NCBI GenBank assembly: GCA_024636785.1
Contig: JAGXGK010000012.1
Location: 1 to 53,425, forward strand
Direction of reading: 5' to 3'
DNA from: Gammaproteobacteria bacterium
Lineage (GTDB): Bacteria > Pseudomonadota > Gammaproteobacteria > SZUA-229
DNA length: 53,425 nucleotides
The notes under the pieces were generated by a model. It searched no databases, was not told where the DNA came from, and saw only the letters and a list, made by a program, of their open reading frames with translations. Position numbers and translations under genes: made by a program. Below are positions 3,385-51,794 of the stretch, in pieces (position 1 is the stretch's first letter; every line of letters starts with the position of its first letter).

Positions 3385-3589
3385 TCCCGTTGACACTTAA
3401 CAGTGTATTAGACAGAAGATTGGGTTTATTGGGATAGACAGAATTCTATCTGTCCCCTGAAAAACAGGTATATTATAGAAATAATCCACAATGCACCCTC
3501 CCCGATAACCCTGTGCTTTTTTGATATGAAATTGTTTTTTACGCGATTCCATCCTGGAAGGCAAGGTTTCGTTTTTAACCCCCCTGTAC

Positions 3590-34689: not shown

Positions 34690-36048
34690 TCAGTTACTCA
34701 GGATGCGCATCATATTAGTGTAATCTTCGCTTATCTTCGCGTCAGAGTCTCTAAGTTCGGCTATCTTCCGGCAACCGTGTAATATTGTTGTATGATCCCG
34801 ACCCCCAAAGGCAGCACCGATTTCAGGCAGACTGTGATTGGTCAGCTCTTTGGCCAGAGCCATCGCCAGCTGTCGAGGTCGGGTAATGGAACGACTACGG
34901 CGACTGGATAACAGGTCGGAACTGCGAATTTTGTAATATTCAGCCACCGTCTTCTGAATATTTTCGATGCTGATAGCCCGGTCCTGAATCGCAATCAGGT
35001 CGCGCAGAGCATCTTTAGCCAGATCAAGCGTAATCGCACACTTGGTGAAATTGGCCGTGGCCATGACCCGGCGAAACGCTCCTTCCAGCTCGCGAATGTT
35101 TGAGCGGATGCGTTTGGCAATAAAAAAAGCCACTTCGCTGGGAAATTTGAGTTTATATTCCTCGGCCTTTTTCTGCAAAATGGCCACGCGTGTTTCCAGC
35201 TCGGGTGGTTCGATGCACACCGGCAAACCCCAGCCAAAGCGGGAGCGCAGGCGCTCTTCAAGCCCTTCGACCTCTTTCGGATAGCGATCGCAGGTTAAAA
35301 TAATCTGGCTACCCGATTCGAGCAAGGCATTGAAAGTATGGAAAAACTCCTCCTGAGAACGCTCTTTGCCGGCAAAAAACTGGATATCATCGATCAGCAG
35401 CGCATCCAGAGAGCGATAGTGCTGCTTGAATTCATCAATAGCGTTATGTTGCAAGGCCTTGACCATATTGCCGACAAAACGCTCCGAATGCAGGTAGACG
35501 ATACGGGCATCGGGGTTGTTTTGCAGCATCATATTGCCAATGGCATGGATAAGATGGGTTTTACCCAGACCAACGCCGCCATACATGAAAAGCGGGTTGT
35601 ATGCATGACCGGGGTTGTCCGCGATCTGTATCGATGCGGCCTTGGCCAGCTGGTTGGATTTACCCTCGACAAAACTGTCAAAGGTAAATGCCGGGTTGAG
35701 ATTGTGTTCGATAGGGTGCTGATTGCTACTGGAAAGCTTCTGTGGTTCGAAAATACGCGGTTGAGCCATTGTCGGAACCGCAGTAAGAGCGGCTTTCGCA
35801 GGTTTGGCCTGTGAACCAATCTCAAAATTAAGCGCCACCTCGGCAGCGCCTATTTCCACAAGAATGGTCTGAATCTGTTCCTGAAAATTCTGTTTAACCC
35901 AGTCAAGCACAAAACGATTGGGCGCCAGTAAAGTGATGGCACCCGCCTCTTCCTTAATTTGAAGCGGCCGTATCCAGGTATTTAACTGCTGATCAGAGAG
36001 TTTCTGCTCGAGTTGCTGTAAACAGTTTGGCCAAAAAACAACGCTCAA
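34690..36048 (-). CDS. dnaA: Chromosomal replication initiator DnaA
   Basis: DnaA binds oriC and melts it to start replication. The 452-residue protein has domain I ([20 protein letters not shown]) and a variable linker (about 78-110). The AAA+ domain III has Walker A GGVGLGKT (157-164) and Walker [14 protein letters not shown]. Domain IV carries the DNA-binding signature [16 protein letters not shown]. No ATG fits. TTG at 36048 yields the standard [10 protein letters not shown] start, with GGAG 11 bases upstream, so translation probably starts weakly at TTG, which is common for this dosage-sensitive gene. A DnaA box lies 74 bp upstream, consistent with autoregulation. Confidence 0.97.
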
Positions 36049-36121
36049 AGGAAGAAGGTCTCCGTGAAAAAGTGAGTTTAAATCTAAGAAGGAGCGGAGA
36101 TTCTATACCTGTTAATAGGTG

Positions 36122-36130
36122 TTATCCACA
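36122..36130 (+). promoter_or_regulatory. DnaA box upstream of dnaA
   Basis: A perfect TTATCCACA lies in the AT-rich spacer between divergent dnaA and rpmH. It may autoregulate dnaA or form part of a bipartite origin together with the cluster at 34598-34681. The 212-bp spacer holds no gene. Confidence 0.7.
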
Positions 36131-36190
36131 GGCGAAAGTTAATATAAAACGATAAACCATTAACTTGTTGAATAATAGTGGAATCAGGCT

Positions 36191-36219
36191 TTGACTAAGT
36201 GCTGCTGCATCAGTAAAAT
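36191..36219 (+). promoter_or_regulatory. Sigma-70-type promoter of rpmH operon
   Basis: TTGACT (36191-36196) and TAAAAT (36214-36219) are separated by exactly 17 bases, close to the sigma-70 consensus. Transcription would start about 35 bp before the rpmH ATG at 36261. Confidence 0.7.
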
Positions 36220-36260
36220 GCGCGGTTCGCTGAATCAATAACAGTTACAGGTTAACTACC

Positions 36261-36395
36261 ATGAAAAGAACATTCCAGCCCAGCACTCTGAAAAGGGCAA
36301 GAACACACGGTTTTAGAGCGCGCAGTCGTACTGTTGGCGGTCGTAGAATATTGAAAGCACGCCGTGCCAAAGGTCGTCATAAACTGACCGTATAA
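36261..36395 (+). CDS. rpmH: 50S ribosomal protein L34
   Basis: This is a 44-residue, very basic protein beginning [20 protein letters not shown] and ending in KGRHKLTV, the universal L34 pattern. It is the first gene of the plus-strand rpmH-rnpA-yidD-yidC-mnmE cluster that diverges from dnaA. It lies behind a good sigma-70 promoter. The middle [14 protein letters not shown] differs slightly from enteric L34 but keeps length and ends. Confidence 0.97.
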
Positions 36396-36423
36396 AGCTG
36401 GCTGATTTTCAAAGTTAGCCATT

Positions 36424-36780
36424 GTGTCGAGTGCAGGCCTACCCAAGCAAGCCAGGTTACTGAATGCCGCTGATTTTAATCGGGTTTTTGAAAAACCAAC
36501 GCGAGCAGGCGACCAATTTTTTACCGTTCTTACCCGCTCCAACGAGCTTGGCCGTCCAAGACTTGGGATGGCCATTTCAAAGCGCAGGGTAAAACTATCG
36601 GTAGGCCGAAATCGAATTAAACGTCTGGTTCGTGAAAATTTTCGTCTCTCGACACACAATTGCAATGCTGATTACGTCGTACTGGCCGGGAAGCAAGCGG
36701 CCACAGCAACCAATCAGCAATTGTGGAAGTCTCTCGAAAAGCATTGGGTAATTTTGAAAAAAAAATGCGCCGACTCTTAA
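36424..36780 (+). CDS. rnpA: Ribonuclease P protein component
   Basis: RnpA is the protein cofactor of RNase P, which trims tRNA 5' ends. The 118-residue basic protein has the RNR signature SVGRNRIKRLVRENFR and the PRLGMAISKRRVKLS strand. The start codon is GTG at 36424, giving VSSAGLPKQARLL. It overlaps the yidD start by 16 bases. The rpmH-rnpA pair is nearly universal. Confidence 0.96.
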   Translation: MSSAGLPKQARLLNAADFNRVFEKPTRAGDQFFTVLTRSNELGRPRLGMAISKRRVKLSVGRNRIKRLVRENFRLSTHNCNADYVVLAGKQAATATNQQLWKSLEKHWVILKKKCADS

Positions 36781-37088
36781 TCGCCCTTATTCGTTTTTAT
36801 CAACTTGCACTGAGTCCTTATATTGCATCGGGCTGCCGTTATACGCCTACCTGTTCCAGTTATGCGATAGAAGCCGTGCGCAGCCAGGGTGTTTTTCGGG
36901 GTAGCTGGTTAGCAATCCGTCGCCTGGGCCGCTGTCACCCCGGCTATGATGGGGGCTACGACCCTGTTCCAGGCAGTGAAGTTACTAATTGCCGCTCGAC
37001 AACGTGTAAATCTTCAGTGTGCAAGCCGGAAGATCACAAATCAATAAACTCCAACCCTGAAAACGGGAAAACCTCGGAAAGCCATTAG
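36765..37088 (+). CDS. yidD: Membrane protein insertion efficiency factor YidD
   Basis: This is a 107-residue small protein of the YidD family (haemolysin-like domain). An N-terminal amphipathic segment (MRRLLIALIRFYQLALSPYI) precedes the cysteine-rich core CRYTPTCSSYAIEAV and GRCHPGYDGGYDPVP. It assists YidC-dependent insertion of inner-membrane proteins. The C-terminal tail beyond about residue 72 is longer than in many homologues and carries two further cysteines (TNCRSTTCKSSVCKPED). The ATG at 36765 overlaps rnpA. The stop overlaps an alternative GTG of yidC. Confidence 0.93.
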   Translation: MRRLLIALIRFYQLALSPYIASGCRYTPTCSSYAIEAVRSQGVFRGSWLAIRRLGRCHPGYDGGYDPVPGSEVTNCRSTTCKSSVCKPEDHKSINSNPENGKTSESH

Positions 37089-37090
37089 TG

Positions 37091-38737
37091 ATGGAAAATC
37101 AAAGAACCCTGCTCTATTTCGCCCTATTGTTTCTGGTCTATTTACTGTGGGCACAATGGCAAAATGATTATGCACCCCGCCCCGAAGTCGCCGTAGCACC
37201 GGAAAAATCCGAACAAATCGGCAGCAGCGAGATGGACAGTGACGTGCCACCGCCCATTAATGCAGTTGCTCCCAGTGCGGAGATAGAGAACAGGCCGGCA
37301 GCTGCAAGCAGCAGTCGAGTTATAACCATCGTAACCGATGTTTTGGAAGTTGAAATCAGTACCCGCGGCGGCGATGTACGCAGGGCAACCTTAAGAAAAT
37401 ATGCGGTTAATGCGGATAAACAGGATGAGAAGGTCGATCTGCTAACCGAAGATAGAACTAATTTCCATGTCGCGCAGTCCGGGCTGGTTTCAGCCAACAA
37501 GGAGACCGCCCCTACCCATAATGCAGTTTATACCGCCGAGCAGGACAGCTATCGCCTGGCCGAAGGTATTAATGAGATAAAAGTCCCTCTCTACTGGACC
37601 GGCAAAGACGGAACAAGAGTCACCAAGGTTTATACCTTCCGCAGAAACGATTACACCATTAATGTCGATCACGCCATTGCCGCCGGTGAGAAGGGCTGGA
37701 GTGGCAGTCAGTACATGCAGCTGTATCGCACCGAGCCAGTCGATGAAAACGCATCCATGTTTATTCACACCTATACCGGTGGCGTCATATATAACGACGA
37801 AATCAAATATGAAAAAATTGATTTCGGTGATATGCAGGAAAAGAATCTAAACAGAGAGCTGGAAAACGGCTGGCTGGCGATGATTCAGCACTATTTCCTG
37901 ATCGCGTGGATCACGGACAGTAACGAAAAGCACCTCTACTTTTCCCGTTATAACTCCGACAGCGGGCGCTATATACTCGGTACGCGCTCAGAGGCAAAAC
38001 GATTACAAGCGGGTGAGCAGAGCAGTTTTAACAGTCGCCTGGTCGTCGGTCCCAAACTTCAGGACAGGCTGGCGAAAGAGCAGCCCGGTCTGGAATTAAC
38101 CGTGGATTACGGCATACTCACCATCATTGCCAAACCCCTTTTCTGGTTGCTTAATCAGTACCATAATCTATTTGGTAACTGGGGCTGGGCCATTATCTTT
38201 CTGACCATTACGGTCAAAGCGCTATTCTATAAGTTGTCAGCGATGAGTTATAAATCGATGGCGAAAATGCGCAAAGTCGCGCCGCGCATGAAACAGATGA
38301 AGGAACAGTTCGGGGATGACCGTCAGGCCATGAGCAAGGCCATGATGGAAATGTACAAGCGGGAAAAGATCAATCCCATGGGTGGCTGTCTGCCTATCCT
38401 TGTACAGATACCGGTGTTCATTTCACTCTACTGGGTGCTGCTGGAAAGCGTGGAAATGCGCCAGGCCCCGTTCATGTTATGGCTCACCAACCTGTCAGCA
38501 CGTGACCCCTATTTCATCCTGCCATTGCTGATGGGCATATCAATGTTTGTGCAGCAGAAACTGAACCCGGCACCGGTCGATCCAGTGCAGCAGAAGATCT
38601 TCCAGTTTATGCCCATTGGTTTTACCGTTATGTTCGCCTTCTTCCCCTCCGGTCTGGTGCTGTACTGGGTCGTGAATAACCTGCTGTCGATTGCACAGCA
38701 ATGGGTCATCACCCGACGCATTGAGAACGAGAAATAA
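37091..38737 (+). CDS. yidC: Membrane protein insertase YidC
   Basis: YidC inserts and folds inner-membrane proteins with or without Sec. The 548-residue protein has an N-terminal anchor (TLLYFALLFLVYLLWAQW), then a large periplasmic domain (about 60-345). The conserved five-helix insertase core follows, with NWGWAIIFLTITVKALFYKL, a cytosolic loop MKQMKEQFGDDRQAMSKAMM and NPMGGCLPILVQIPVFISLY. The ATG at 37091 follows the yidD stop by two bases; a GTG one codon earlier is possible. It precedes mnmE by 60 bp. Confidence 0.98.
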   Translation: MENQRTLLYFALLFLVYLLWAQWQNDYAPRPEVAVAPEKSEQIGSSEMDSDVPPPINAVAPSAEIENRPAAASSSRVITIVTDVLEVEISTRGGDVRRATLRKYAVNADKQDEKVDLLTEDRTNFHVAQSGLVSANKETAPTHNAVYTAEQDSYRLAEGINEIKVPLYWTGKDGTRVTKVYTFRRNDYTINVDHAIAAGEKGWSGSQYMQLYRTEPVDENASMFIHTYTGGVIYNDEIKYEKIDFGDMQEKNLNRELENGWLAMIQHYFLIAWITDSNEKHLYFSRYNSDSGRYILGTRSEAKRLQAGEQSSFNSRLVVGPKLQDRLAKEQPGLELTVDYGILTIIAKPLFWLLNQYHNLFGNWGWAIIFLTITVKALFYKLSAMSYKSMAKMRKVAPRMKQMKEQFGDDRQAMSKAMMEMYKREKINPMGGCLPILVQIPVFISLYWVLLESVEMRQAPFMLWLTNLSARDPYFILPLLMGISMFVQQKLNPAPVDPVQQKIFQFMPIGFTVMFAFFPSGLVLYWVVNNLLSIAQQWVITRRIENEK

Positions 38738-38797
38738 AGTCCGGAAGAGAAAACGCATAAACGATTTCGACAGTCGTTCAATCGAGAAGTGATAAGC

Positions 38798-40141
38798 ATG
38801 GCGGAACAAGACACCATCGCCGCAGTCGCCACGCCTCCCGGACAGGGAGGCGTGGGCATCGTTCGCGTTTCGGGTAAACAGGCGCGCCATATTGCCGGGC
38901 AGCTGCTGGCCAAAAACATCAGCCCACGTTACGCCCATTACCTGCCATTTCTCGATGCAGAAAACCAGACCATAGACAGCGGCATCGCCCTGTTTTTCGA
39001 AGGCCCCCACTCCTTTACCGGTGAAGATGTTCTGGAGCTACAGGCCCATGGCGGGCCTTTCATCCTGGACATTCTGCTCAAGCGAGTGCTCTCGCTCGGC
39101 GCCCGCCCGGCCAGAGCCGGTGAGTTCAGCGAGCGTGCTTTTCTCAATGACAAAATTGACCTGGCCCAGGCCGAAGCCATCGCCGACCTGATCGCCGCCG
39201 AAAGTCATGAAGCTGCCCGCGCCGCCATGCATTCGCTGAACGGCGAATTCTCCAGAGAGATAAATGCACTGGTCGAGCAGCTCACGCAACTGAGAATCCA
39301 CGTCGAAGCCGCGTTGGATTTCCCTGAAGAAGAGATCGATTTTCTGGCCGACAAAGCCATCGAAAACAAACTCAAAATCGTCACGGAAAAATTGCAACAG
39401 GTTAAAGCCAGCGCAAAACAGGGTCGTCTGCTGAAAGAAGGCATGACCGTAGTCATCGCCGGCAAACCCAACGCCGGCAAATCGAGCCTGCTCAACCAGC
39501 TGTCCGGTCAGGACACCGCCATCGTCACCAACATTCCCGGTACCACCCGCGACATCCTGCGCGAACACATTCAGATTGACGGCCTGCCCTTACATATTAT
39601 CGATACCGCCGGCTTGCGCGAGAGTGAAGACATCGTCGAAAAAGAAGGCATCCGCCGCGCCCTGAACGAGATTGAAAAAGCCGATCGCCTGCTCTACGTT
39701 ATGGATAGCGAATCAGCCGAGGAAGAAAAGGAGGTCATCAATAATTTTTCCGAAAAACTGGGCATCACTTTTGTGCGTAATAAGATTGATGAAAACAATC
39801 TCGCCGCCGGTGTAAAAGAAAAAAGCGAAAAAATAACAGAAATATATCTGTCGGCGAAAACCGGCGAAGGCGTCGACTTATTAAAGCAGCATCTTAAAGA
39901 ATGCATGGGTTTCGAAACTCGCGTCGAAGGAAAATACATGGCCCGGCGCAGACATCTGGAAGCGATCGAAGCCGCCGAAAAGAATCTGGCCAGTGCCGAA
40001 TTGAATTTAGAATACAGACAGGGCGAACTGGTCGCTGAAGAACTCAGTATGGCGCAGAATCAGCTGGCCGGCATCACCGGTGAATTCAGCAGTGATGATT
40101 TACTGGGACGAATCTTTTCGGATTTCTGTATAGGGAAATAG
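38798..40141 (+). CDS. mnmE: tRNA modification GTPase MnmE
   Basis: MnmE, with MnmG, installs cmnm5 groups on wobble uridines of tRNA. The 447-residue protein shows the folate-binding N-domain ([20 protein letters not shown]). The G domain has [16 protein letters not shown] (G1), PGTTRD (G2), [13 protein letters not shown] (G3) and NKID (G4). The canonical C-terminal tail FCIGK carries the functional cysteine. The ATG at 38798 is used (GAGAAG upstream); a GTG three codons earlier is less likely. mnmG is not in the window. Confidence 0.98.
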
Positions 40142-40271
40142 CCGATCAAAAATATCCTGCAAAGAAATCAGGAAAATGTTTTATATTATTTTTAAAGAGC
40201 GGTGAAGATAGATATGCGCGTACTTTCATCGAAAGCTTAAGTCAACTTTGACGCAAGCAGGTTCAACGTTA

Positions 40272-41162
40272 ATGAGCATTTCTAAATATCCTTCAAAGCT
40301 AAGCCTGCCCCAGAACAACCCCGGCGTTGAAAGTGTGCTGGAGTATCTTATTGCTAAATTCCCGGCCATTAATGCCGACGTGTGGCGGCAGCGTGTCGCT
40401 GGTGGCAAAGTGCATTGGCATGATGGCACATGCATTACTGCCGAATCACCCTTTCAGCCGCAACAACGGGTTTACTATTACCGCGAAGTCGAAAGTGAAA
40501 CAGTCATTCCCTTCGATGAGGAAATACTGTTTCAGGACAAACATATTTTAGTCGCTTATAAACCGCATTTTCTGGCGGTAACACCGGGCGGGATTTACAT
40601 AAAAGAGTGTCTGCAAAACCGGCTGCGTGACAAAACCGGGCATGATAACTTGCAGGCACTGCATCGACTGGATAGAGCCACTGCAGGTCTGGTGTTATTT
40701 TCAATCAATCCCAGTACACGCCATCTTTATCATCAGCTGTTTAAAAGCCATAAAATAGAAAAAACCTATCAGGCCATCGCCAGAATAGATGGAACTGAGA
40801 ATTTAACGGGACGATCATGGGAAATTAAAAATCGCATCGTGAAATCGGAACCGCGATTTCTCATGAAGATTGTTATCGGTGAAGCAAATAGTCATTCGAT
40901 GATACGCTGTTTGAAGCAGTGTTCCGACAAAGCATTATTTGAATTAAAACCGATTACCGGCAAAACACATCAGTTGCGACTGCACATGCAGGCAGTAGGC
41001 TATCCCCTGCTGCACGACCGCTACTATCCGAACTTACAGCCGGAATCCCCTGATGATTACGCCAGATCCTTGCAGCTGCTGGCGAAAGAGCTACGCTTTA
41101 TCGATCCGATCACACAGCAGTACAGAGTGTTTAGTAGCCGGATAAATCTGGAGATAGAGTAG
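40272..41162 (+). CDS. RluA-family pseudouridine synthase
   Basis: This 296-residue enzyme isomerises uridine to pseudouridine in RNA. An N-terminal S4-like part is suggested by VWRQRVAGGKVHWHDGT. The catalytic motif is LHRLDRATAGLVLFSINP, with the nucleophilic aspartate in RLDRA. PITGKTHQLRLHMQAVGYPL near the end binds RNA. The subfamily (rRNA versus tRNA target) is not clear; it resembles the RluA/TruC type. Preferred start is the ATG at 40272; an upstream TTG at 40248 is possible. It is followed by fabV after 89 bp. Confidence 0.9.
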   Translation: MSISKYPSKLSLPQNNPGVESVLEYLIAKFPAINADVWRQRVAGGKVHWHDGTCITAESPFQPQQRVYYYREVESETVIPFDEEILFQDKHILVAYKPHFLAVTPGGIYIKECLQNRLRDKTGHDNLQALHRLDRATAGLVLFSINPSTRHLYHQLFKSHKIEKTYQAIARIDGTENLTGRSWEIKNRIVKSEPRFLMKIVIGEANSHSMIRCLKQCSDKALFELKPITGKTHQLRLHMQAVGYPLLHDRYYPNLQPESPDDYARSLQLLAKELRFIDPITQQYRVFSSRINLEIE

Positions 41163-41251
41163 CGCCGCTTTTAGCCTGATAAAGGCATGCTAAAATAACA
41201 AAAATTCTTAATTTGACCACTCTCAATTTAACTATGGCGGAAATATATAAA

Positions 41252-42448
41252 GTGATTATCAAACCAAAAACTCGCGGCTTTATTTGCACCACCACGCACC
41301 CTACCGGCTGTGAAGCCAATGTAATGGAGCAGATAGCACGGGTAAAAGCTGATGGCGAAATGGCAGGTAGCCCGAAGAAAGTTTTAGTCATCGGCGCTTC
41401 AACCGGCTATGGTCTGGCCTCACGCATTACCGCCGCCTTTGGTGCTGGTGCAGCCACACTGGGCGTATTTCTGGAAAAACCCGCCAACGACAAAAAGCCC
41501 GGCTCTGCCGGCTGGTATAACTCAGCCGCTTTCGAGAAAGTCGCACACGCGGAAGGCCTGTACGCCAAAAGCATCAATGGCGATGCCTTCTCCAATGAAA
41601 TGCGCGCCAAAACCATCGAAATGATCAAAGCCGATCTGGGCCAGGTAGACCTGGTTGTCTACTCGTTGGCCTCGCCGGTGCGTAAACTGCCCGATAGCGG
41701 CGAATTGGTTCGCTCCGTATTAAAACCCATCGGCGAGACTTACAAAGCCACCGCGATCGATACCAGCAAAGACGTCATTATCGACGCTGAAATCGAGCCT
41801 GCGAGCGAAGCAGAGATACAGGACACCGTCACCGTTATGGGTGGAGAAGACTGGGAATTGTGGATGAGCGCGTTAAAAGAGGCCGGTGTTCTGGCCGATG
41901 GCATCAAAACGGTTTCCTACAGCTATATCGGCACCGATATTACCTGGCCCATTTACTGGCACGGCGCTCTGGGCAAAGCCAAAGAAGATATGGACCGCGC
42001 CGCCGGCGCATTACGCCAGTCACTCGCCGATATTAATGGCACCGCCAATGTCGCCGTACTGAAAAGCGTAGTCACCCAGGCCTCCGCCGCCATACCGGTT
42101 ATGCCTCTATATATCGCCATGAGCTTTAAGGTGATGAAAGAACTGGCTATTCACGAAGGCTGCATCGAACAGATCAATCGCCTGTTCCGTACCCAGTTAT
42201 ATAAGGAAGGCGGTCCGGACCTGGATGATAGCGGGCGTCTTCGTATGGACGACTGGGAACTGCGCGATGACGTACAGAACAAAGTGAAAGATCTCTGGCC
42301 CCAGGTCAACAATGAAAACATTTTTGAGCTCACCGATTATCAGGGCTATAAAGATGAATTCCTGAAACTGTTCGGCTTTGGCATCGCAGGCATTGATTAT
42401 GATATCGATGTGGATACATTGGTTGAGTTTGAGCCTGAGACGATTTAA
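41252..42448 (+). CDS. fabV: Trans-2-enoyl-ACP/CoA reductase FabV
   Basis: FabV is an NADH-dependent enoyl reductase of type II fatty-acid synthesis and is intrinsically triclosan-tolerant. The GTG at 41252 gives 398 residues and the family start (V/M)[19 protein letters not shown]. The alternatives at 41213 and 41234 add residues absent from homologues. The nucleotide site is [17 protein letters not shown]. The FabV catalytic Y-x8-K motif is in [20 protein letters not shown]. The C-terminal [19 protein letters not shown] is typical. No fabI is seen nearby, so it may be the organism's main enoyl reductase, though that needs the full genome. Confidence 0.96.
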
Positions 42449-42474
42449 AGATAACTTTCAGGATAAGGTGAACC

Positions 42475-43347
42475 GTGGATATAGGTATTATCGGCATAGG
42501 CCTGATGGGTCACGCATTTGTGGAGCGCTATCTGGCACAGGATTATACGGTCAGGGTTTTTAATCGCAGCCGGGATCATGTCAAGGATCTGGCCGAGAGC
42601 GGCGTTATTATCTGTTCAACTGTGGATGAACTGATCAGCTTATCCTCCACTATTATTATGATGGTCAGTGATGCCGACGCAATCAGTCACCTGCTCCAGC
42701 TAAATCAACCGGACGATAAACCCGCAGACCTGCACGATAAAACAATCTTACAGATGGCGACGATATCACCTTCCCAGTCCAGAGAGGTAGGTGAAGCAAT
42801 TTCATCCTGCGGCGGTCGCTATCTGGAAGCGCCGGTGCTAGGCAGTATTCCCGAAGCAAAAACGGGTGCGCTGATCATCATGGCAGGCGGATCAAAAGCA
42901 GTGTTCGAAGATGTGCTGCCGACGCTACAGGTATTGGGCAGCGCGCCGCGTTACATCGGCGAAACAGGTTCAGCCGCCGCGCTCAAGCTATCCATGAATC
43001 AGCTGATTGCCTCGCTCACCGCCGGTTTTTCACTGAGCTTAGGTTATGCCATCGAAAACGGCGTCGATACGGAACAGTTTATGGAAACCGTGCGAGAAAG
43101 TGCACTGTATGCAAAAACCTACGACAAGAAGTTGCAGAAATATATTGAGCGTGATTTCGGCACCGCCAATTTTTCAACCCGGCATCTTTTAAAAGATATA
43201 CGTTTGTTTATCGATGACGCCAAAGCCGCCGGTTTGAATACGGATGCGCTGGAAGGCATTGAAAGAATAACAGACCAGGCAGTTGAGAACGGTATGGAGA
43301 AGATGGATTATTCATCGATTTTTCAGGTGATATGCCCGAAAAAATAG
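42475..43347 (+). CDS. NAD(P)-dependent beta-hydroxyacid dehydrogenase family protein
   Basis: This is a 290-residue protein of the 3-hydroxyisobutyrate dehydrogenase / 6-phosphogluconate-like superfamily. The N-terminal Rossmann fold begins IGIIGIGLMGHAFVERYL. GGRYLEAPVLGSIPEAKTGA corresponds to the substrate loop, and the catalytic lysine is in SAAALKLSMNQLIASL. The start is GTG (42475) with AAGGTG upstream. It lies 26 bp after fabV. Substrate unknown; glyoxylate or succinic semialdehyde reductase activity is possible in this family. Confidence 0.9.
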   Translation: MDIGIIGIGLMGHAFVERYLAQDYTVRVFNRSRDHVKDLAESGVIICSTVDELISLSSTIIMMVSDADAISHLLQLNQPDDKPADLHDKTILQMATISPSQSREVGEAISSCGGRYLEAPVLGSIPEAKTGALIIMAGGSKAVFEDVLPTLQVLGSAPRYIGETGSAAALKLSMNQLIASLTAGFSLSLGYAIENGVDTEQFMETVRESALYAKTYDKKLQKYIERDFGTANFSTRHLLKDIRLFIDDAKAAGLNTDALEGIERITDQAVENGMEKMDYSSIFQVICPKK

Positions 43348-43460
43348 TTATGGCCTGATCTTTCGTTTTGGGGCGAGTTCGTCATCCCGGTATGCTTTAA
43401 CTGTTATAGTACGGTTCAAAATTTAATTTCTTCCTTCCTTTTAATTTGTAAAACAACATC

Positions 43461-45017
43461 ATGAACAGCAAAAACCCGTCAGATCTTCACCTTAAACTCC
43501 GCAATCTTGAAAAAGAAGATTATCCGCAGGTCTCAAAATTAATGGAAGAAATTTATGCTGACATTGGCGGTGCCTGGTCCCAAAGTTCGCTGTTCGCACT
43601 GATCAAGGATTTTCCCGAAGGCCAGATAGTAATCGAAGACAACGGCAAAGTTGTCGCAGTCGCGCTTACGGTAAAGTGCAGTTATGAGCGCTTCAGTCTT
43701 ACCCATACCTATGACGACTTGATCGGCCGCCGCGATCGCATTAAACATGATGAAAAAGGTGATGCACTCTACGGCATGGATATGTTTGTCAGTAAGGAGT
43801 ACCGCGACTTACGACTGGGTCGAAGATTGTATGATGCACGCAAGGAGCTTTGCCGAAACTTCAACCTGCGCGCCATTCTGGCGGGTGGCAGAATTATAAA
43901 ATATCACGAACATGCAGAGATGAAACCTGCCGACTACATAGAAGCTGTGCGTCGCAGAGAAATCCACGACCCGATTCTCAGCTTCCAGTTGGCCAATGAT
44001 TTTGAAGTCAAACGCTTAATGAAAGGCTACATGCCGGAAGACAAAATGTCACTGGGATATGCCACCCTGCTTGAGTGGAATAACATCCTCTATGAGCCGG
44101 AATCCGGTGCCGCGGATTCTATGCGAAAAACAGTAGTGCGCGTTGGCATCGTGCAATGGCAGATGCGGCTTACCGACTCATTTGAGACGTGGTTGAATCA
44201 GGTGGAATACTTTGTCGATTCCATGTCGGCCTACAAAGCGGATTTCGTCCTGTTCCCGGAATTCTTTAATGTGCCGCTGATGGGCATCGGTGATCAGCAT
44301 AACCAGTACGATGCCATACGTTTTCTCGCCACCTTTTCTGATCGAATCGTCGAATCGATTTCGCAATTTGCAGTGACTTATAACATCAACATTATTGCCG
44401 GCAGTATGCCCGCCATGTCCGGTGATAATTTATACAACAACGCATACCTATGTCGGCGTGATGGCACCGTAGACGTGCAGCCAAAAATCCACATCACCCC
44501 GCATGAACGACGAGACTGGGTTATAGAAGGCGGTGATAGTCTGCAAGTGTTTGATACCGATGCCGGGCGCATCGGCATACTGATCTGTTACGACGTCGAG
44601 TTCCCCGAGCTTTCACGACTGCTGGCAAAGCAGGAAATGGAAATACTGTTTGTACCTTTCTGGACGGATACAAAAAATGGTTTTCTACGCGTGCAACGCT
44701 GCGCCCAGGCAAGAGCCATCGAAAACGAATGTTATGTCGCTATCGGCGGCAGTGTAGGCAACCTGCCCCAGGTCGAAAATGTAGATATTCAATATGCGCA
44801 ATCAGCCGTCTATTCACCCTCAGATTTTGCTTTTCCTCACGATGCAATCATGGCGGAAAGCACACCGAATACCGAAATGGCACTGATTGCTGACCTTGAT
44901 CTGGACAAACTGGTCCAGCTGCGACATGAAGGCTCAGTCACCAACTCCAGAGACCGTCGCGATGATCTGTTTGAATTGAACTGGCTGGGAATAGAAATAG
45001 AATCAGAAGAGCGCTGA
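43461..45017 (+). CDS. Bifunctional GNAT acetyltransferase / carbon-nitrogen hydrolase fusion
   Basis: This is a 518-residue two-domain protein. Residues about 10-190 form a GNAT N-acetyltransferase domain (acetyl-CoA loop near SKEYRDLRLGRRLYDARKEL). Residues about 225-510 form a nitrilase-superfamily amidohydrolase. Its Glu-Lys-Cys triad is visible: E in VLFPEFFNVPL, K in QPKIHITPHERRDW and C in IGILICYDVEFPEL. Such fusions are known in proteobacteria, but their substrate is not established. The pairing suggests coupled acylation and amide hydrolysis of a small metabolite. It ends the core-like plus-strand region before the repeat-bearing gap at 45018-45320. Confidence 0.92.
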   Translation: MNSKNPSDLHLKLRNLEKEDYPQVSKLMEEIYADIGGAWSQSSLFALIKDFPEGQIVIEDNGKVVAVALTVKCSYERFSLTHTYDDLIGRRDRIKHDEKGDALYGMDMFVSKEYRDLRLGRRLYDARKELCRNFNLRAILAGGRIIKYHEHAEMKPADYIEAVRRREIHDPILSFQLANDFEVKRLMKGYMPEDKMSLGYATLLEWNNILYEPESGAADSMRKTVVRVGIVQWQMRLTDSFETWLNQVEYFVDSMSAYKADFVLFPEFFNVPLMGIGDQHNQYDAIRFLATFSDRIVESISQFAVTYNINIIAGSMPAMSGDNLYNNAYLCRRDGTVDVQPKIHITPHERRDWVIEGGDSLQVFDTDAGRIGILICYDVEFPELSRLLAKQEMEILFVPFWTDTKNGFLRVQRCAQARAIENECYVAIGGSVGNLPQVENVDIQYAQSAVYSPSDFAFPHDAIMAESTPNTEMALIADLDLDKLVQLRHEGSVTNSRDRRDDLFELNWLGIEIESEER

Positions 45018-45320
45018 TATTTGTTTTTATAATTCTATTTTTAGTTAAAACCAAAAGCATTCACCGCAGAGGCCGCACTAAAATGCCGTGAGCATTTAAA
45101 CGCACGTAGGGCGACCCGTAGAGCGAGTTACAGCAAGTAAAGAGCGCAGCGGAAAACAAATATTGCTTCAGTTGTTTCTGAAACAAATCCCTTATTTACG
45201 TTTACAGAAATATCGCGGTCAAGCCTTCAGCACATGCAAAACGAAAAGCCCGCCTAGTGCTTCATTGACTAACCAACCAGCACTCTCCCAGTAGCTGCAG
45301 AGTCTGCTAACATACTACTA
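45018..45320. other. Gene-free gap with direct-repeat copy 1
   Basis: This 303-bp gap has no convincing gene. It contains AAAGCATTCACCGCAGAG (45054-45071), repeated exactly at 52350-52367. The following sequence is also partly conserved between the copies (AAATATTG..., then TTTCTGAAACAA versus TTTTTGAAACAA). An 80-bp insertion in this copy holds small inverted repeats (AAATGC-CGTGA-GCATTT). The rest would hold the promoter of the binding-protein gene, which I cannot define. Confidence 0.5.
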
Positions 45321-46190
45321 ATGAAATTTCAGCTATTAAACGCATTGCGCTGTCTCAGCTTTCTATTCCTGCTCCCCACCGCCGCGCCGGTTGTGGCAGA
45401 CAAGGCGGAACTGATATTCGCCGTACATCCTTATGATACTCCCAGCCGCATCATCATTCGCTTCCAGCCGGTGTGCGATTACCTGACCGAGGTGCTGCAG
45501 CGGCCAGTGAAGCTGTACATTACCACCAGCTACGAGGAGCAGATCCGTAAAATCGCCCGGGATGAGGTGGATATCGCCTACATGGGGCCCTCTCCCTATT
45601 TAAGGGCGCATGACCGATATGCGGAAAGCGGCAAGTCAAGGGTGCAGCTTATTGCGGTGGAGCCACCCTATCAGGGTGTCATCATCGTGCGCCGCGACAG
45701 TAACATCCACAGTCTGCGCGATTTACAGGACAAGACCTTCGCCTTTGGCGCGCTCCAGTCCTTTGCCGGCCATTACATGCCACGGGTGATGATGCTGGAT
45801 GCAGGCATCACTCTGGCCGATCTCAAGGACTACAGTTTTCTCGACCGGCATGAGCGAGTGGTGCTGTCCGTGGTACACGGTGATTTCGACGCCGGCGCCA
45901 CTACTCGCGGCATTGCTGAACACTATATCGACCGCCCGCCAGGGTTGCGTATTCTGGCGCTGACCCCGCCCCTGCCGCCATTGTCCCTGGTAGCCCGCCC
46001 CGGCCTGGATGCCGACACCATGGCTCGACTGCGCCAGGCGCTGATTGAGCCGGACATCGATGGTATACAGGCCCTGAAATCATTGGGTCAGAATGTCAGT
46101 TTCAGCATCATTGACGATGCCTCCTTCGATGAGGCGCGCAAGGTGATGGAACGTATAGAACGGAGTGGTGCTGCGTCTTCCCCGCCTTGA
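45321..46190 (+). CDS. PhnD-like periplasmic phosphate/phosphonate-type binding protein
   Basis: This is a 289-residue exported solute-binding protein of the PhnD-like (PF12974-type) family. It has a signal peptide of about 26 residues (LSFLFLLPTAAPVVADKAEL). The fold blocks are FAVHPYDTPSRIIIRFQPVCDYL, YITTSYEEQIRKIARDEVDIAYMGPSPYL, and FGALQSFAGHYMPRVMM (each shown in part). There is no ABC permease or ATPase nearby, so import is not its obvious job. Lone PhnD-like proteins next to histidine kinases often serve as ligand sensors. The downstream kinase and sigma-54 activator fit that, as inference. Start has no clear Shine-Dalgarno sequence. Confidence 0.87.
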   Translation: MKFQLLNALRCLSFLFLLPTAAPVVADKAELIFAVHPYDTPSRIIIRFQPVCDYLTEVLQRPVKLYITTSYEEQIRKIARDEVDIAYMGPSPYLRAHDRYAESGKSRVQLIAVEPPYQGVIIVRRDSNIHSLRDLQDKTFAFGALQSFAGHYMPRVMMLDAGITLADLKDYSFLDRHERVVLSVVHGDFDAGATTRGIAEHYIDRPPGLRILALTPPLPPLSLVARPGLDADTMARLRQALIEPDIDGIQALKSLGQNVSFSIIDDASFDEARKVMERIERSGAASSPP

Positions 46191-46250
46191 AAGCCCCTTC
46201 TGATGCTGGTCTGATTTTGTCGCCAACCATGACTGGTCATCAGCTGTTAC

Positions 46251-46265
46251 TGGCACAATTCATGC
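46251..46265 (+). promoter_or_regulatory. Candidate sigma-54 (-24/-12) promoter of an sRNA
   Basis: TGGCAC-N5-ATGC keeps the invariant GG and GC doublets 12 bases apart, exactly as in the porin promoter at 46533. One position of the TTGC half differs. A perfect palindrome ATGAC-TG-GTCAT lies just upstream (46229-46240). No ORF with a ribosome site begins downstream before the terminator at 46371. Confidence 0.55.
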
Positions 46266-46276
46266 GTATATGGATT

Positions 46277-46396
46277 GGTGCAAGACTGTTACTAAACGCT
46301 TTGCATATTTTGTGAAATTGACTCGCAGGCTATGTGCTGCGGCGGTCGATACAAGACTCCAGCTATTTTCGGGTGCCTTATGGCACCCTTTTTTTT
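46277..46396 (+). ncRNA. Candidate sigma-54-dependent small RNA (about 120 nt)
   Basis: The segment is bounded by a -24/-12 promoter ending at 46265 and a strong intrinsic terminator ending at 46396. The start is set 12 bases after the GC doublet. No coding frame fits: the only ORF across it (from 46270) lacks a ribosome site and reads through the terminator. The motif CAAGACT occurs twice inside it, as possible seed sequences. It lies between the binding-protein gene and the porin in the 432-bp gap 46191-46622. By analogy with Qrr or GlmY RNAs it could act by antisense pairing, but no target is identified. Confidence 0.45.
46371..46396 (+). terminator. Strong intrinsic terminator
   Basis: GGGTGCC-TTAT-GGCACCC forms a 7-bp GC-rich stem with a 4-base loop, followed directly by eight T. 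It lies 180 bp after the binding-protein stop and would end either readthrough from that gene or the proposed sRNA. Confidence 0.9.
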
Positions 46397-46532
46397 GGTA
46401 TAGTCTTACAAATACCATGGCATTTTACCCTTGTGCTGACCACTACGGATGCGCCCACCTAATTGCCCATTGTTTCGATAAATAAATTGTGAAATCAATA
46501 AGATAGTGGCCTTCTTGTTGTCTGTATTCCAT

Positions 46533-46548
46533 TGGCACGTATCTTGCT
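46533..46548 (+). promoter_or_regulatory. Sigma-54 (-24/-12) promoter of the porin gene
   Basis: TGGCACG-TATC-TTGCT matches the sigma-54 consensus TGGCACG-N4-TTGCW at every defined position. Transcription should start near 46559, giving a 64-base leader before the porin ATG at 46623. The activator is probably the NtrC-type protein encoded at 50159-51553. Confidence 0.85.
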
Positions 46549-46622
46549 GAATAGGTTGTACAGCGCATCTGCAAAATGGTGACGTCTGATAAATCGATAA
46601 CAACATGTGACGGGAGTCATCA

Positions 46623-47690
46623 ATGAACAAATCCTCAACTCGAACAACAATCCGTATTCTGCCACTGACTAGTGGCGTACTGCTGGCGCTTGGCAGTCTG
46701 GTCACTCATGCGGAACCGGTGGCCGGTGCCGAAGCCGCCCAGGTGTATGGCCAGGCGCGCCTGCATGTACTTAACCGCTCCGATGATTTCGGCACCAGCG
46801 GTACCGGAACCTCGCTGCAGAGTTATTCATCTCGCCTTGGCGTGAAAGGTAATATTAAGACTAATATCGAGGGAGTAGATGCTTTCTACAAAATGGAAAT
46901 GCTTTATGACACCACCGATGCAGTTTCCGGTGATAATTTGAAGGGGCGCGATGCCCTGGCCGGTCTCAAGGGCAATTTCGGTAGCATTAAGGTGGGCCGT
47001 CTGTCTGTCGCCTACAAAGGCACCCTGACCAAAATAGACCCCTGGAACGATTCTGAAATGCAGTCTCGCGGCTTCGGTGGTAAACAGGGTTCATCAGCAC
47101 TGCATTCCAGCTACTTTAACAAGGCCCTCGAATACGTTTCACCCAAAATGGGCGGCGTGACCCTGGCGGCCTGGACTTCGCAGCAGTTCGATAACACCAC
47201 CACCTTGGGTACCTTGCACAATGCCGGTCCCATTAAGGAATTTGAAGGTGGTAGTGCCTCAGGTGTCGGCCTGAAATATGACGCAGACAACCTGTTCGTT
47301 GGTGTCGACATGATCGACATCAATGCCGATAACATCACCAACGCCAAACTGGCCAACGATTCCGGTATGCAGATCGGCGCCCGCTACAAAATGGGCAGTG
47401 TCAGCGTCGCTGGTTTCTACGAAGATGTGGAAGATATCGGCCTGGGTAAAAATACTTGGTTGAATGTCATCTACAAACAGGGCAATACCCGTTATATCGC
47501 CGGTTATGGCACCAACACCGATGCACGTCGCTTCAATAATGAAGAGTCAGCCACTTATAATGTGGGCGCGGTATATAGCCTGAACAAGACCTCCCAGTTG
47601 TTCGCTGCCTATAACAGCCGCAGCGAAGATAATTCCGGCAATGACTTCAATACCATTACTGCCGGTCTGAATCTGAAATTTGGTTATTAA
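46623..47690 (+). CDS. Outer-membrane porin (Gram-negative porin family)
   Basis: This is a 355-residue trimeric-type porin for diffusion across the outer membrane. It has a signal peptide of about 31 residues (RILPLTSGVLLALGSLVTHA). The mature chain starts with AAQVYGQARLHVLNR, contains PEFRxK-like motifs such as FGSIKVGRLSVAYKG, and alternates short strands (AVYSLNKTSQLFAAYNSRS). It ends LNLKFGY with the terminal aromatic required by the BAM machinery. A strong ribosome site (GGGAG, six bases before ATG) and a consensus sigma-54 promoter precede it, so expression should be inducible and high. A terminator follows at 47712. Confidence 0.92.
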   Translation: MNKSSTRTTIRILPLTSGVLLALGSLVTHAEPVAGAEAAQVYGQARLHVLNRSDDFGTSGTGTSLQSYSSRLGVKGNIKTNIEGVDAFYKMEMLYDTTDAVSGDNLKGRDALAGLKGNFGSIKVGRLSVAYKGTLTKIDPWNDSEMQSRGFGGKQGSSALHSSYFNKALEYVSPKMGGVTLAAWTSQQFDNTTTLGTLHNAGPIKEFEGGSASGVGLKYDADNLFVGVDMIDINADNITNAKLANDSGMQIGARYKMGSVSVAGFYEDVEDIGLGKNTWLNVIYKQGNTRYIAGYGTNTDARRFNNEESATYNVGAVYSLNKTSQLFAAYNSRSEDNSGNDFNTITAGLNLKFGY

Positions 47691-47711
47691 CAGGCATTTA
47701 GAGTTGATGTC

Positions 47712-47737
47712 GCGACCGCTCTGGGCGGTCGCTTTTT
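47712..47737 (+). terminator. Intrinsic terminator/attenuator after the porin
   Basis: GCGACCGC-TCTGG-GCGGTCGC followed by five T forms a strong hairpin 22 bp after the porin stop and only 16 bp before the sulfurtransferase start. It would make the porin the major product, with partial readthrough into the downstream gene. Confidence 0.85.
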
Positions 47738-47752
47738 ACAAGAGAAGAAGTT

Positions 47753-48679
47753 ATGAACAGGAACTTACTGAAATTATTACCTCTGGTTTTTCTACTGTTC
47801 AGCCAGATCGTTCGCGCCGATAGTCGGGACTTTCTGGTGGACACCGAATGGCTGGAGGCGCGCATTGACGATCCGGAGCTGGTGCTTCTGGAAGTGCGCT
47901 ATCACCCCCACCGCTATTTCACCATTGGCCATATACCGGGTGCGGTTCAGGTGCAGCGCTTCAAGGATCTGGGCGATAACACCGCCAGCCCGCTGATGCG
48001 TTTCCCGTCACGGGAAGATTTCCAGAACACCTTGCGCAGCTGGGGCGTGAATGATGACTCCCTGATCGTCATCTATGATGACTCCCGCACAGCCCTTGCT
48101 TCCCGGCTGTTTTTTCTGCTGGAACTGTATGGTTACGACATGCGCCAGGTCAAAGTGCTCGACGGCGGCACACTTAACTGGGGCCCGTTCAATGAGCTGA
48201 CACAGGAAACGACTACACCCAGCCCAGGTAATGTCAGCCTCAAGCAGGCCAATGCCGATCTTTATGTCGAATGGCAGCAGGTCTATGACGACGTGCTCTC
48301 CCGTCGTGATCCGAACGTAGTGCTGCTGGACGCCCGTCCCCATGACATGTACACCGGCGAGATCATCCGCCATTCCATCATGGCCGGCCATATCCCCGGT
48401 GCCGTCAACGTAGTCAGTCTCGCCGGCACTAATGCCCAGTCGCAAAAATGGCTGTCCACTGAAAGTCTGGAGCAGATGTACTGGAATATACCCAAAGACA
48501 AGCGCATTTATGTCTATTGCCACGACGGTTTTCGCATGAGCCTGGCCTGGATGCAACTCAAGTCACTGGGTTATCAGGACGTGCGCCTTTACAACGGCGG
48601 CTGGTCCCATTGGGGTAATGAGCTGACCCTGCCTACGGTTTTGGGAGAGGAACCCTATGACGAGGAGTATGCGTTGTAA
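47753..48679 (+). CDS. Exported two-domain sulfurtransferase (thiosulfate:cyanide type)
   Basis: This is a 308-residue periplasmic rhodanese with a signal peptide (LLKLLPLVFLLFSQIVRA, about residues 5-22). The N-terminal rhodanese repeat (25-150) has lost its cysteine (VIYDDSRTALASR). The C-terminal repeat (175-295) has the active-site C256 in IYVYCHDGFRMS, preceded by LLDARPHDMYTGE and HIPGAVNVVS. This inactive-plus-active pairing is standard for TST/SseA-like enzymes. Substrates are probably thiosulfate or another sulfane-sulfur donor. Its location between a sigma-54-driven porin and a two-component system suggests a sulfur-compound response, as inference. Confidence 0.92.
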   Translation: MNRNLLKLLPLVFLLFSQIVRADSRDFLVDTEWLEARIDDPELVLLEVRYHPHRYFTIGHIPGAVQVQRFKDLGDNTASPLMRFPSREDFQNTLRSWGVNDDSLIVIYDDSRTALASRLFFLLELYGYDMRQVKVLDGGTLNWGPFNELTQETTTPSPGNVSLKQANADLYVEWQQVYDDVLSRRDPNVVLLDARPHDMYTGEIIRHSIMAGHIPGAVNVVSLAGTNAQSQKWLSTESLEQMYWNIPKDKRIYVYCHDGFRMSLAWMQLKSLGYQDVRLYNGGWSHWGNELTLPTVLGEEPYDEEYAL

Positions 48680-48756
48680 TCCGTCAGGCCGAGGTATTAT
48701 CAGGAACCACCGCACCTGATGTTCAGTGATTGGCGGGCATGCTAAGGTTAGCTTGC

Positions 48757-50162
48757 ATGTATCCCCAAAGTGAAAATGAACCATCCGTTACCGTGCCGGC
48801 ACGCCAGCCTCCGACCCTGTCCATGCAGATCGGCCTCTACGCCGGTCTGGCCCTGCTGCTGGCCGGCCTGATGGTACTGGGCATGAAACGCATTCTGGAA
48901 GACAGCCTGATGGACAAGGCCAGTATGCTGGCACGGCAAATCGCCACCGTTTCCCTCGATGCGGTACTGATGCACGACTATGGAGTGCTGGAGCGTTACA
49001 GCGCTGACCTCTCCGGCGCCGATGGCCTGGTTTATCTGCGAATCCGCCGGGAAGACGGCACCATACTGGCAGAGGCCAGCGATGCGACGAATACACAGCC
49101 CCTGCTGAAAATCGAAAAACCTATTCTGCTGGCGGATCGGGTCGTCGGCGATGTCACTGTCGCTTATGAACGCAGCACCATCGATCGGGCCATTTCCCGT
49201 TTTACTTTGGTGGTGATTCTGGCGGTGGCCTTACTCTCTGTCCTGTTCTTTTTTACTCTGCGCGCCCTGTTGAAACGGCGTCTGATCGACCCCATTGAAC
49301 GGCTGGCCCGCGAGCTGCATCCGCTGCACCCTGGACGTTCCAACTTGATGCCACCAGTCCTCGGGAAGTACACGAGCTGCAACATAACTTTGAGCGGTTG
49401 CGTAGCGAAATACGCCAGCATATTGGCGAGATCGAACAGGCCAATAGCCTGGCTCGGGCCGCCACGCAACGCCTCTGTCATGGCCAGCGCATGGCTTCCA
49501 TCGGCCAGATGGCGGCCGGTCTGGCTCATAGCCTGAATACCCCCCTGGGCAATATTCTGGGTTACGCCCAGCAGGCCCGGCGCAAGGCTGGTGACGAGGA
49601 CATGCGCGCCCGCATGGAGGTCATAGAACGCCAGGCTGAAGCCTGTTCGGACATAGTACGCAATCTGCTGAGCGCTGCCCGCGGACCGGACATACGCATC
49701 CAGCCCTTCGATCTGGCGGAACTGTCCCGAGCCACAGTAAAACTGTTGCGCCCGGTGGTTCATGACCACGGCGTCGAGCTGTTACTGGATCCGGGCGTTG
49801 AGCATCTCAGCCTGAACGTACTGGGGGATGTAGGTGGCGTGGAGCAGATTCTGTTCAATTTGGTCAATAATGCGGTACAGGCCGGCGCCAAAACCATCCG
49901 TGTGCACTTGTGCAACGACAGTCAATGGGGCCGGTTACAGGTAGAAGATGATGGTCAGGGTATTGCCGACGAAATTCGCTCCCGGATATTCAAACCCCTG
50001 TTCACCACCAAGGCCGCAGGCCAGGGAACCGGGCTGGGTCTGCACCTGTGCCAGACTCTGGCCGGCAGCATGCAGGGCAGCATTGAGCTGCTGGACAGCC
50101 GCCCTGGCAACACCCGGTTTCAGCTGGATCTGCCTTTGGCAGCGCCGGGAGTGTCACCATGA
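48757..50162 (+). pseudogene. Membrane sensor histidine kinase, broken by a one-base frameshift
   Basis: The upstream frame starts at ATG 48757 (AAGG nine bases before). It encodes two membrane helices (IGLYAGLALLLAGLMVLGMK and RFTLVVILAVALLSVLFFFT) around a periplasmic sensor (about residues 48-145), then enters a HAMP-like linker (RLIDPIERLARELHPL). Near 49321-49350 the kinase continues in another frame: TFQLDATSPREVHELQHNFE, the H-box MAAGLAHSLNTPLGNILGYA, then VNNAVQAGAKTI (N-box), VEDDGQGIADEI (G1) and GTGLGLHLCQ (G2). A single-base loss explains it, and the upstream frame otherwise ends at 49536. Both halves are well conserved and overlap the regulator gene by four bases. A sequencing error or recent mutation is therefore as likely as old decay. 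Confidence 0.85.
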
Positions 50163-51553
50163 ATGATGATCGATTGTTGATTGCTGAGGATGATCTCGAC
50201 ATGGCCAGACTGCTGGCCGAAATTGCGACCGAAGCCGGCTTCAGTACACAGATGGTACACAATGGCGCTGATGCGGTTGCGGCTCTGCGCGCATCCCCGC
50301 CCGATGTGCTGCTTACCGACCTGTGCTTGCCAGCGCCGGGTGGTCTGGAATTATTACGCCTGGCGCGGGAACTGGACGGACAAACCGAAGTGATCATGAT
50401 CACCGGCTATGCCACGGTGAACGATGCGGTGGAAGGTTTTAAGGCCGGCTTGCACGATCTGGTCACCAAGCCTTTCAATACCGATCAGGTGCTGGCGCTG
50501 TTACAACGGCTGAAAACCTATCTGCTCCATCGCCGCCGTAGTGAACAGCTCAGCACCCGCCTCGCCCATCTGGAGAACGCATCACGGCAACCGGTCATGC
50601 AAAGCCACGCCGCACGCCACTGTCTGGATCTGGTACAGCAGGTCGCACCACTGGATGTGCCGGTATTGTTGCTGGGTGAATCCGGTACTGGTAAAGGAGT
50701 GCTGGCGCAGCATATCCACCAGATCAGCCCGCGCCGGGACGGCCTCTTCTTCGAGCTGAATTGCGCGGCGGTGGCGGAAACCCTGGTGGAAAACGAGCTT
50801 TTTGGCCACGAAAAAGGCGCTTATACCGGTGCCGGCGAACGCAAGCGCGGCCTGCTGGAGCTGGCCAACGGCGGTACACTGCTGCTGGACGAAATCAACA
50901 GCACCAGCCTGGAAATTCAGGCCAAGTTACTGCATTTCATGCAGAACCGCAGTTTACTGCGTGTCGGTGGCGACCGCCCCATCACGGTTGATGTCCGCCT
51001 GCTGGTGGCCAGCAATGAAGATCTCGCCGGCCTGGTGGAACAGGGCCGCTTCCGTCGGGATCTGTATTACCGGCTTAACGTGTTCCCTGTGGCCTTACCC
51101 CCACTGCGTGAACGCCGCGAGGATATACTGCCCCTGGCGGAAGGTTTTCTTGTCGACTACGCTGTGCGCTACGCCAGTCCGGCACGCCGGTTTTCCCCTG
51201 ATGCCCTGAGTCTGCTGACCAACTACGACTGGCCGGGCAATATCCGTGAACTGGAAAATATCGTACAACGCGCCGTGATCCTGGCTCATGAAGAACAGGT
51301 CGACAAGGCCCATCTGCCCCATGAACTGGCTGCCGGCGGTTCATCGCAGGCGATAGTGGCACTGGCGCTGAATGCGGATGCTTCCCTGGCCGATGTGGAG
51401 GCTTGCTGGATAAAACAAATGCTTGCGCGTTGCAGTGGGAACAAGGCAGATGCGGCACGGCGGTTGGGTATAGACGTCTCCACCCTGCATCGCAAATTAC
51501 GACAGGCAACAAACATAGATGACAAACAAACGAATATAAAAGGCCAGGTATAA
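50159..51553 (+). CDS. NtrC-family sigma-54 response regulator
   Basis: This is a 464-residue enhancer-binding activator with three intact modules. The receiver domain (1-120) has D54 in VLLTDLCLPAPGG. The AAA+ domain has Walker A GESGTGKG (173-180), the sigma-54 contact loop GAYTGA (220-225; the usual GAFTGA with Tyr for Phe), Walker B LLLDE (241-245) and DYDWPGNIRELENIVQR-type C-lid (as TNYDWPGNIRELENIV). A Fis-type helix-turn-helix ends it (NKADAARRLGIDVSTLHRKL). Its start overlaps the kinase stop by four bases (ATGA), so the two are a cognate pair. The sigma-54 promoters at 46251 and 46533 are the evident local targets. Confidence 0.95.
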   Translation: MNDDRLLIAEDDLDMARLLAEIATEAGFSTQMVHNGADAVAALRASPPDVLLTDLCLPAPGGLELLRLARELDGQTEVIMITGYATVNDAVEGFKAGLHDLVTKPFNTDQVLALLQRLKTYLLHRRRSEQLSTRLAHLENASRQPVMQSHAARHCLDLVQQVAPLDVPVLLLGESGTGKGVLAQHIHQISPRRDGLFFELNCAAVAETLVENELFGHEKGAYTGAGERKRGLLELANGGTLLLDEINSTSLEIQAKLLHFMQNRSLLRVGGDRPITVDVRLLVASNEDLAGLVEQGRFRRDLYYRLNVFPVALPPLRERREDILPLAEGFLVDYAVRYASPARRFSPDALSLLTNYDWPGNIRELENIVQRAVILAHEEQVDKAHLPHELAAGGSSQAIVALALNADASLADVEACWIKQMLARCSGNKADAARRLGIDVSTLHRKLRQATNIDDKQTNIKGQV

Positions 51554-51794
51554 TAATGGTTTGTTCAGCCTATATCACGGTTGAATTTGACTTCAAACTA
51601 CACCACAAAAAACCCGCCTGGTGTTTAATGGCATGACGATCTAGCCCCCTCTCCCACCGGGGGTAGAGGCTTTAATTACTGTTATAGAATAAGGCGTGAC
51701 ACGAACCATATCAGCTGCGTACTTTTGTCTGTAATAAATTAATTAAGGATCGATAACTTTCAATTATCGCCTGCTACATAAAAAACACGGCGCA

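Follow-up and report, generated by a model that had tools for sequence, protein, structure and literature searches.

A consensus sigma-54 porin promoter that looks to belong to a circuit recurring in sulfur-oxidising bacteria, next to a terminator that probably ends the upstream transcript

The gap at 46191-46622 of the window (the whole stretch of DNA analysed here, 53,425 nucleotides) has a periplasmic binding protein (SBP) gene on its 5′ side and a porin gene on its 3′ side, and it probably holds one conserved regulatory unit rather than two: a sigma-54 promoter serving the porin, preceded by a terminator that ends the SBP transcript, with a second sigma-54-like element that gives rise to no stable RNA. 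The porin switch looks to be a real part of a regulatory circuit common to several sulfur-oxidising bacteria. An earlier note on this DNA had read the same gap as also encoding a sigma-54-dependent small RNA (sRNA), a claim that the data do not carry. The locus is laid out as follows.

45321-46190, plus strand: PtxB/PhnD/ArrX-like periplasmic binding protein (SBP) (Pfam Phosphonate-bd, 195 bits; TIGR01098 above cut-off; PDB matches PtxB, ArrX and AioX)
46251-46266, plus strand: site 1, a moderate sigma-54-like element TGGCACAATTCATGCG (score 12.5), without enhancer and without IHF-like site
46277-46396, plus strand: the segment proposed earlier as an sRNA, more likely part of the SBP 3′ UTR
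46371-46396, plus strand: intrinsic terminator GGGTGCCTTATGGCACCC-T8, a 7-bp stem plus T8
46407-46430, plus strand: degenerate enhancer candidate TTACAAATACCATGGCATTTTACC, resembling the degenerate enhancer of locus L099
46493-46505, plus strand: IHF-like site AATCAATAAGATA with one mismatch, starting 40 bp before site 2
46533-46548, plus strand: site 2, a consensus sigma-54 porin promoter TGGCACGTATCTTGCT, for which all 11 loci of family f54 have a counterpart
46623-47690, plus strand: porin (Porin_4), its f54-locus relatives mostly 33-39% identical
47712-47732, plus strand: second intrinsic terminator, in the porin/rhodanese interval
47753-48679, plus strand: two-domain rhodanese whose family occurs chiefly in sulfur oxidisers
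48730-50162, plus strand: histidine kinase, with a frameshift near 49310-49400 that interrupts it
50159-51553, plus strand: NtrC-type sigma-54 activator (response regulator) with a GAYTGA loop

The two sigma-54 elements were scored with a matrix approximated from the published consensus, so that the scores are rough, and were compared with dinucleotide-preserving shuffles of the gap. Site 2 reaches the maximum score of 19.1, which is matched in 0.025% of the shuffles on the plus strand, and thus bears out its earlier description as a full consensus match in front of the porin. Site 1 scores 12.5, matched in 3.1% of plus-strand shuffles; its −24 box is perfect and its −12 box weaker, and its GG/GC spacing equals that of site 2, as had been reported for the pair. 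Two good plus-strand sites occur together in 0.1% of the gap shuffles, and over the whole window four sites scoring at least 12.4 were seen against 5.2 expected by chance. No sigma-70-like site was found on the plus strand. A duplication origin for the two sites was considered and rejected, just a 14-nt repeat being found. The NtrC-type activator that had been placed 4 kb downstream is indeed present, about 3.5 kb away, and RpoN is encoded in the genome. Judged from sequence, site 2 looks to be a real sigma-54 promoter that serves the porin within a wider circuit, and site 1 is most likely a moderate match that drives no stable RNA.

Relatives of the SBP, the kinase and the regulator are grouped together in genomes of several families. 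Comparisons were made with 11 loci of family f54 and with four to five further genomes containing the same SBP-kinase-regulator system, the genomes being a sample. The closest regulators are 48-57% identical to that of the window, whose recognition region GNKADAARRLGIDVSTLHRKLR is nearly identical in L061, L099 and L145. Downstream of the regulator gene or before the porin gene, the relatives carry the palindrome TTGCANNNTGCAA or a close variant of it, and in several loci another copy, often a weaker one, follows at exactly 18 bp. This enhancer lies 74-76, 86-88 or 97 bp upstream of the sigma-54 element, about one helical turn per step. In most loci the promoter is preceded by an IHF-like site WATCAANNNNTTR, the start of which is 17/18 bp upstream, or 27/28 bp in two of them; L061 and L147 have no IHF-like site at that position, and those of L144 and L189 have two mismatches. 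Because the enhancer model was derived first from L061, L109, L147 and L149 and only then found in the f54 set, the f54 loci provide a fair check of it. All 11 of their gaps contain exactly one sigma-54 promoter with the enhancer, and no terminator was found between promoter and porin in any of the 11 examined, a single overlapping terminator-like match in L183 coinciding with the promoter itself. The promoter-enhancer pair is also present in L061, L109, L147, L149 and, in degenerate form, L099, and the recurring unit stands before porin or rhodanese genes in L180-L190, L144, L061, L109, L147 and L149. This arrangement is conserved among the relatives, and a limited search of the literature found no description of the circuit. 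Separately, in two genomes a Crp/Fnr-type regulator gene precedes a porin-rhodanese pair, and a motif resembling ATTTCAATCATG stands in front of the porin (L061 7442-7560 in G282; L194 4300-4480 in G326); this would be another control of the same porin-rhodanese genes.

The gene set of the circuit (SBP, kinase, NtrC-type regulator, and porin or rhodanese) is complete in the window, with the kinase frameshifted, and the circuit's promoter is present directly before the porin in the form of site 2. The enhancer that relatives have 74-97 bp before this promoter does not rise above chance in the window gap, where the best enhancer score has P 0.61. The window's IHF-like site lies about two helical turns farther upstream than is usual (P 0.07 for the stretch). 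Near site 1 there is no IHF-like site with fewer than three mismatches, and no enhancer-like site was found at the right distance when this regulator's enhancer model, the only one scored, was applied. The missing enhancer at site 1 is weaker evidence because site 2 also has no clear enhancer; the contrast in IHF-like sites, one preceding site 2 but none preceding site 1, argues for a single unit. Elsewhere in the window one strong enhancer match, at 44144 within an upstream gene, was dismissed as chance (1 seen, 0.45 expected).

A 43-bp block of the gap (46458-46500), outside the segment 46277-46396, shares 91% identity (E 8e-9) with an intergenic stretch of G056, a genome from a different family in which the neighbouring genes are unrelated; in both places it ends in an IHF-like sequence. 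The block has no match in plasmids or phages, viral 16-mer matches to it do not extend, and its pattern is absent from 39 relatives.

The SBP-to-regulator block is probably accessory, an insertion, because synteny with a same-genus genome (G004; 91% identity over 35208-45126) gives way to divergence beyond that point, because the regulator and the porin have no close counterpart among 54 same-family genomes, and because GC content rises to 0.55 in 45127-51600 from 0.49-0.52 upstream and then falls to 0.44 downstream. The G004 contig stops only about 350 bases beyond the synteny break near 45126; part of its sequence past the break matches a repeat at 3570-3812 of the window. The histidine kinase frame contains a single frameshift, whereas the kinases of relatives are uninterrupted, and this may mark either a dead gene or an assembly error. 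With a frameshifted kinase and a degenerate enhancer, the system may be in decay in the window genome, unless the frameshift is an assembly error. Relatives of the rhodanese were found in 57 loci at 54-75% identity, mostly in sulfur oxidisers (Thiocapsa, Thiocystis, Lamprocystis, Sedimenticola, Thiothrix, Sulfuritalea).

According to the model that we favour, the SBP, presumed to be the sensor of a three-component system, would sense a solute and cause the kinase to phosphorylate the NtrC-type regulator. We infer that the regulator would then bind and, aided by IHF bending, activate sigma-54 polymerase at the porin and sulfurtransferase genes. Our guess, from the host range and the rhodanese, is that the signal is a sulfur compound. 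The SBP gene would be transcribed from its own promoter and its transcript ended at 46371-46396, leaving a 3′ UTR of roughly 205 nt; the terminator would thereby insulate the inducible porin promoter from read-through and shield the enhancer-IHF-sigma-54 region. The activator would induce the porin and, if the terminator at 47712-47732 is leaky, the rhodanese as well, a lower level of which is possibly set by that terminator. This second terminator is strong and ends 20 bp before the rhodanese start; the rhodanese of L109 is likewise preceded by a terminator. Several observations sit awkwardly with the model. The upstream terminator lies about 180 nt past the SBP stop, an unusually large distance for one that ends a 3′ UTR, and relatives in which SBP and porin are co-directional have no terminator there. 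Furthermore, the −24 box of site 1 is perfect, site 2 is without a clear enhancer in the window, and no promoter was identified for the SBP gene.

A competing proposal is that site 1 drives a 120-nt, sigma-54-dependent, trans-acting sRNA ending at 46396 and regulated jointly with the porin, by the porin's activator or a different one, which we consider unlikely. In its favour, the −24 box and GG/GC spacing of site 1 are intact, and a strong terminator follows at a plausible distance, just where the earlier note had placed it, with a score that 0.6% of gap shuffles reach. The searched loci, 1.2 Mb in all, contain a sigma-54 site followed by a strong terminator within 300 nt only in the window and in L109; because the naive expectation is 0.07 such units per window, the unit may plausibly, though not certainly, be due to chance. 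The fold of the segment is better than that of shuffles when the terminator is included (z −3.13) but at chance when it is removed (z −0.71), so that the RNA itself is not unusually structured. Site 1 moreover lacks the enhancer and IHF-like companions expected of such a promoter, and the conservation in relatives that the earlier note had put forward as a test did not materialise: the site-plus-terminator unit is found in 0/11 comparable porin gaps, and the segment has no DNA relatives beyond its terminator in the 58 and 369 genomes searched. Neither the segment nor any other part of the window matches an Rfam family at gathering score. Matches at a permissive threshold (PhrS, 20.3 bits; sRNA71; Atu_C8) were set aside, resting mainly on the terminator and falling far below gathering. 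Pairing of the segment with the porin, histidine kinase and response regulator starts was no better than with shuffles; pairing with the SBP start (P 0.013) and the rhodanese start (P 0.02) is not counted as evidence, these being among five tests that ignored accessibility. The segment had also been described as about 120 nt without a coding frame. Strictly this does not hold, as a 71-codon ATG frame (46270-46485) crosses both segment and terminator, but the frame is probably due to chance, since no obvious ribosome-binding site precedes it and neither Pfam nor plasmids yielded a relative, and it was rejected as a small protein. A narrower version, in which a lineage-specific sigma-54 sRNA arose recently inside this sensing locus with its porin and rhodanese and is induced along with the porin, L109 being an independent and parallel case of a leader RNA, seems to us just as doubtful. 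The unit in L109 (536-748) consists of a sigma-54 promoter (score 16.3), about 160 nt of leader and, 26 bp ahead of the rhodanese start, a terminator; it resembles an attenuated leader more than a free sRNA, and its RNA is not evidently similar to that of the window. That the segment might be only the 3′ UTR of the upstream gene had been named in advance as fatal to the sRNA, and this is now the simplest reading, the sRNA finding no support in conservation, enhancer or structure.

L109 also lends itself to a different proposal, namely that site 1 starts a long porin leader within which the terminator acts as a conditional attenuator, with site 2 as a second start. There the leader and terminator follow the only sigma-54 site of the gap, and in L144 the leader is about 200 nt. 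In the window, however, site 2 follows the terminator, so that no read-through is needed to reach the porin; an alternative antiterminator fold was not noticed, and the porin leaders of the f54 loci have no terminator. We regard this proposal as very improbable. Equally remote is the idea that site 1 is a decayed enhancer, 46251-46283 being a degenerate pair of half-sites (TTGCA/TGGCA) just past the SBP stop, the position of the enhancer in relatives (in L144, L181 and L182 it starts about 10-30 bp past this stop). The pair does score at a spacing of 20 (P 0.027 over spacings 17-21), but the spacing in relatives is 18, the inner half-sites are poor, and the distance to site 2 is 282 bp as against 74-97 in relatives. 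A precedent for such confusion is provided by L099, in which a sigma-54 match scoring 14.8 (7279-7294) overlaps the enhancer of this regulator and probably has no promoter function, the phased promoter lying at 7364. Because of this overlap, enhancer half-sites of the form TGGCA/TTGCA can, as far as sequence allows one to judge, mimic −24/−12 boxes. The 3′ UTR terminator is preferred to the sRNA as the simpler account.

If the sRNA were nevertheless true, it would add a member of a rare class, the sigma-54-driven sRNAs, to a sulfur-linked locus, and its co-induction with the porin would tie such an RNA to a sulfur-oxidiser system. The recurring circuit, with its precise enhancer TTGCANNNTGCAA, usual IHF-like site and helical phasing, yields a directly testable regulon and site model. 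It also brings a caution for promoter searches, in that the enhancer half-sites of this regulator can imitate −24/−12 boxes.

Among known systems, Qrr and CrcZ are sigma-54-dependent sRNAs lying between a −24/−12 element and an intrinsic terminator; the window, in contrast, is without any Rfam match at gathering score. The E. coli sRNA gene glmY adjoins qseE-qseG-qseF, which encode the NtrC-type two-component system that controls it; it is driven by sigma-54 with the assistance of IHF, its synteny is conserved, and three activating sites (TGT-N12-ACA) lie upstream of it (PMC6075780). The earlier note had proposed such an arrangement for the window, although site 1 has no recognisable enhancer or conservation. 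In Acidithiobacillus caldus, TspS-TspR exerts sigma-54-dependent two-component control over sulfur-compound genes, including the sox-II cluster, through the enhancer TGTCCCAAATGGGACA (PMC6335251). Both that system and the window circuit are sigma-54-dependent, but their enhancers differ (TGTCCCAAATGGGACA versus TTGCANNNTGCAA). In AioX-AioS-AioR, and with ArrX/ArxX, a PtxB/PhnD-like binding protein, a histidine kinase and an NtrC-type regulator are encoded together, and the regulator acts at an RpoN promoter (PMC5908839, PMC7533571). Cys106 is the arsenite-binding position in AioX (PMC5908839); aligned against ArrX, the window SBP has a glycine there, and because the arsenite-binding cysteine is absent it is, by this alignment, not a member of the AioX arsenic-sensing family. 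The logic of binding protein, kinase and NtrC-type regulator is nonetheless shared, and the window SBP matches the structures of ArrX and AioX; the target is arsenite oxidase in the one system and would be a porin and a rhodanese in the other.
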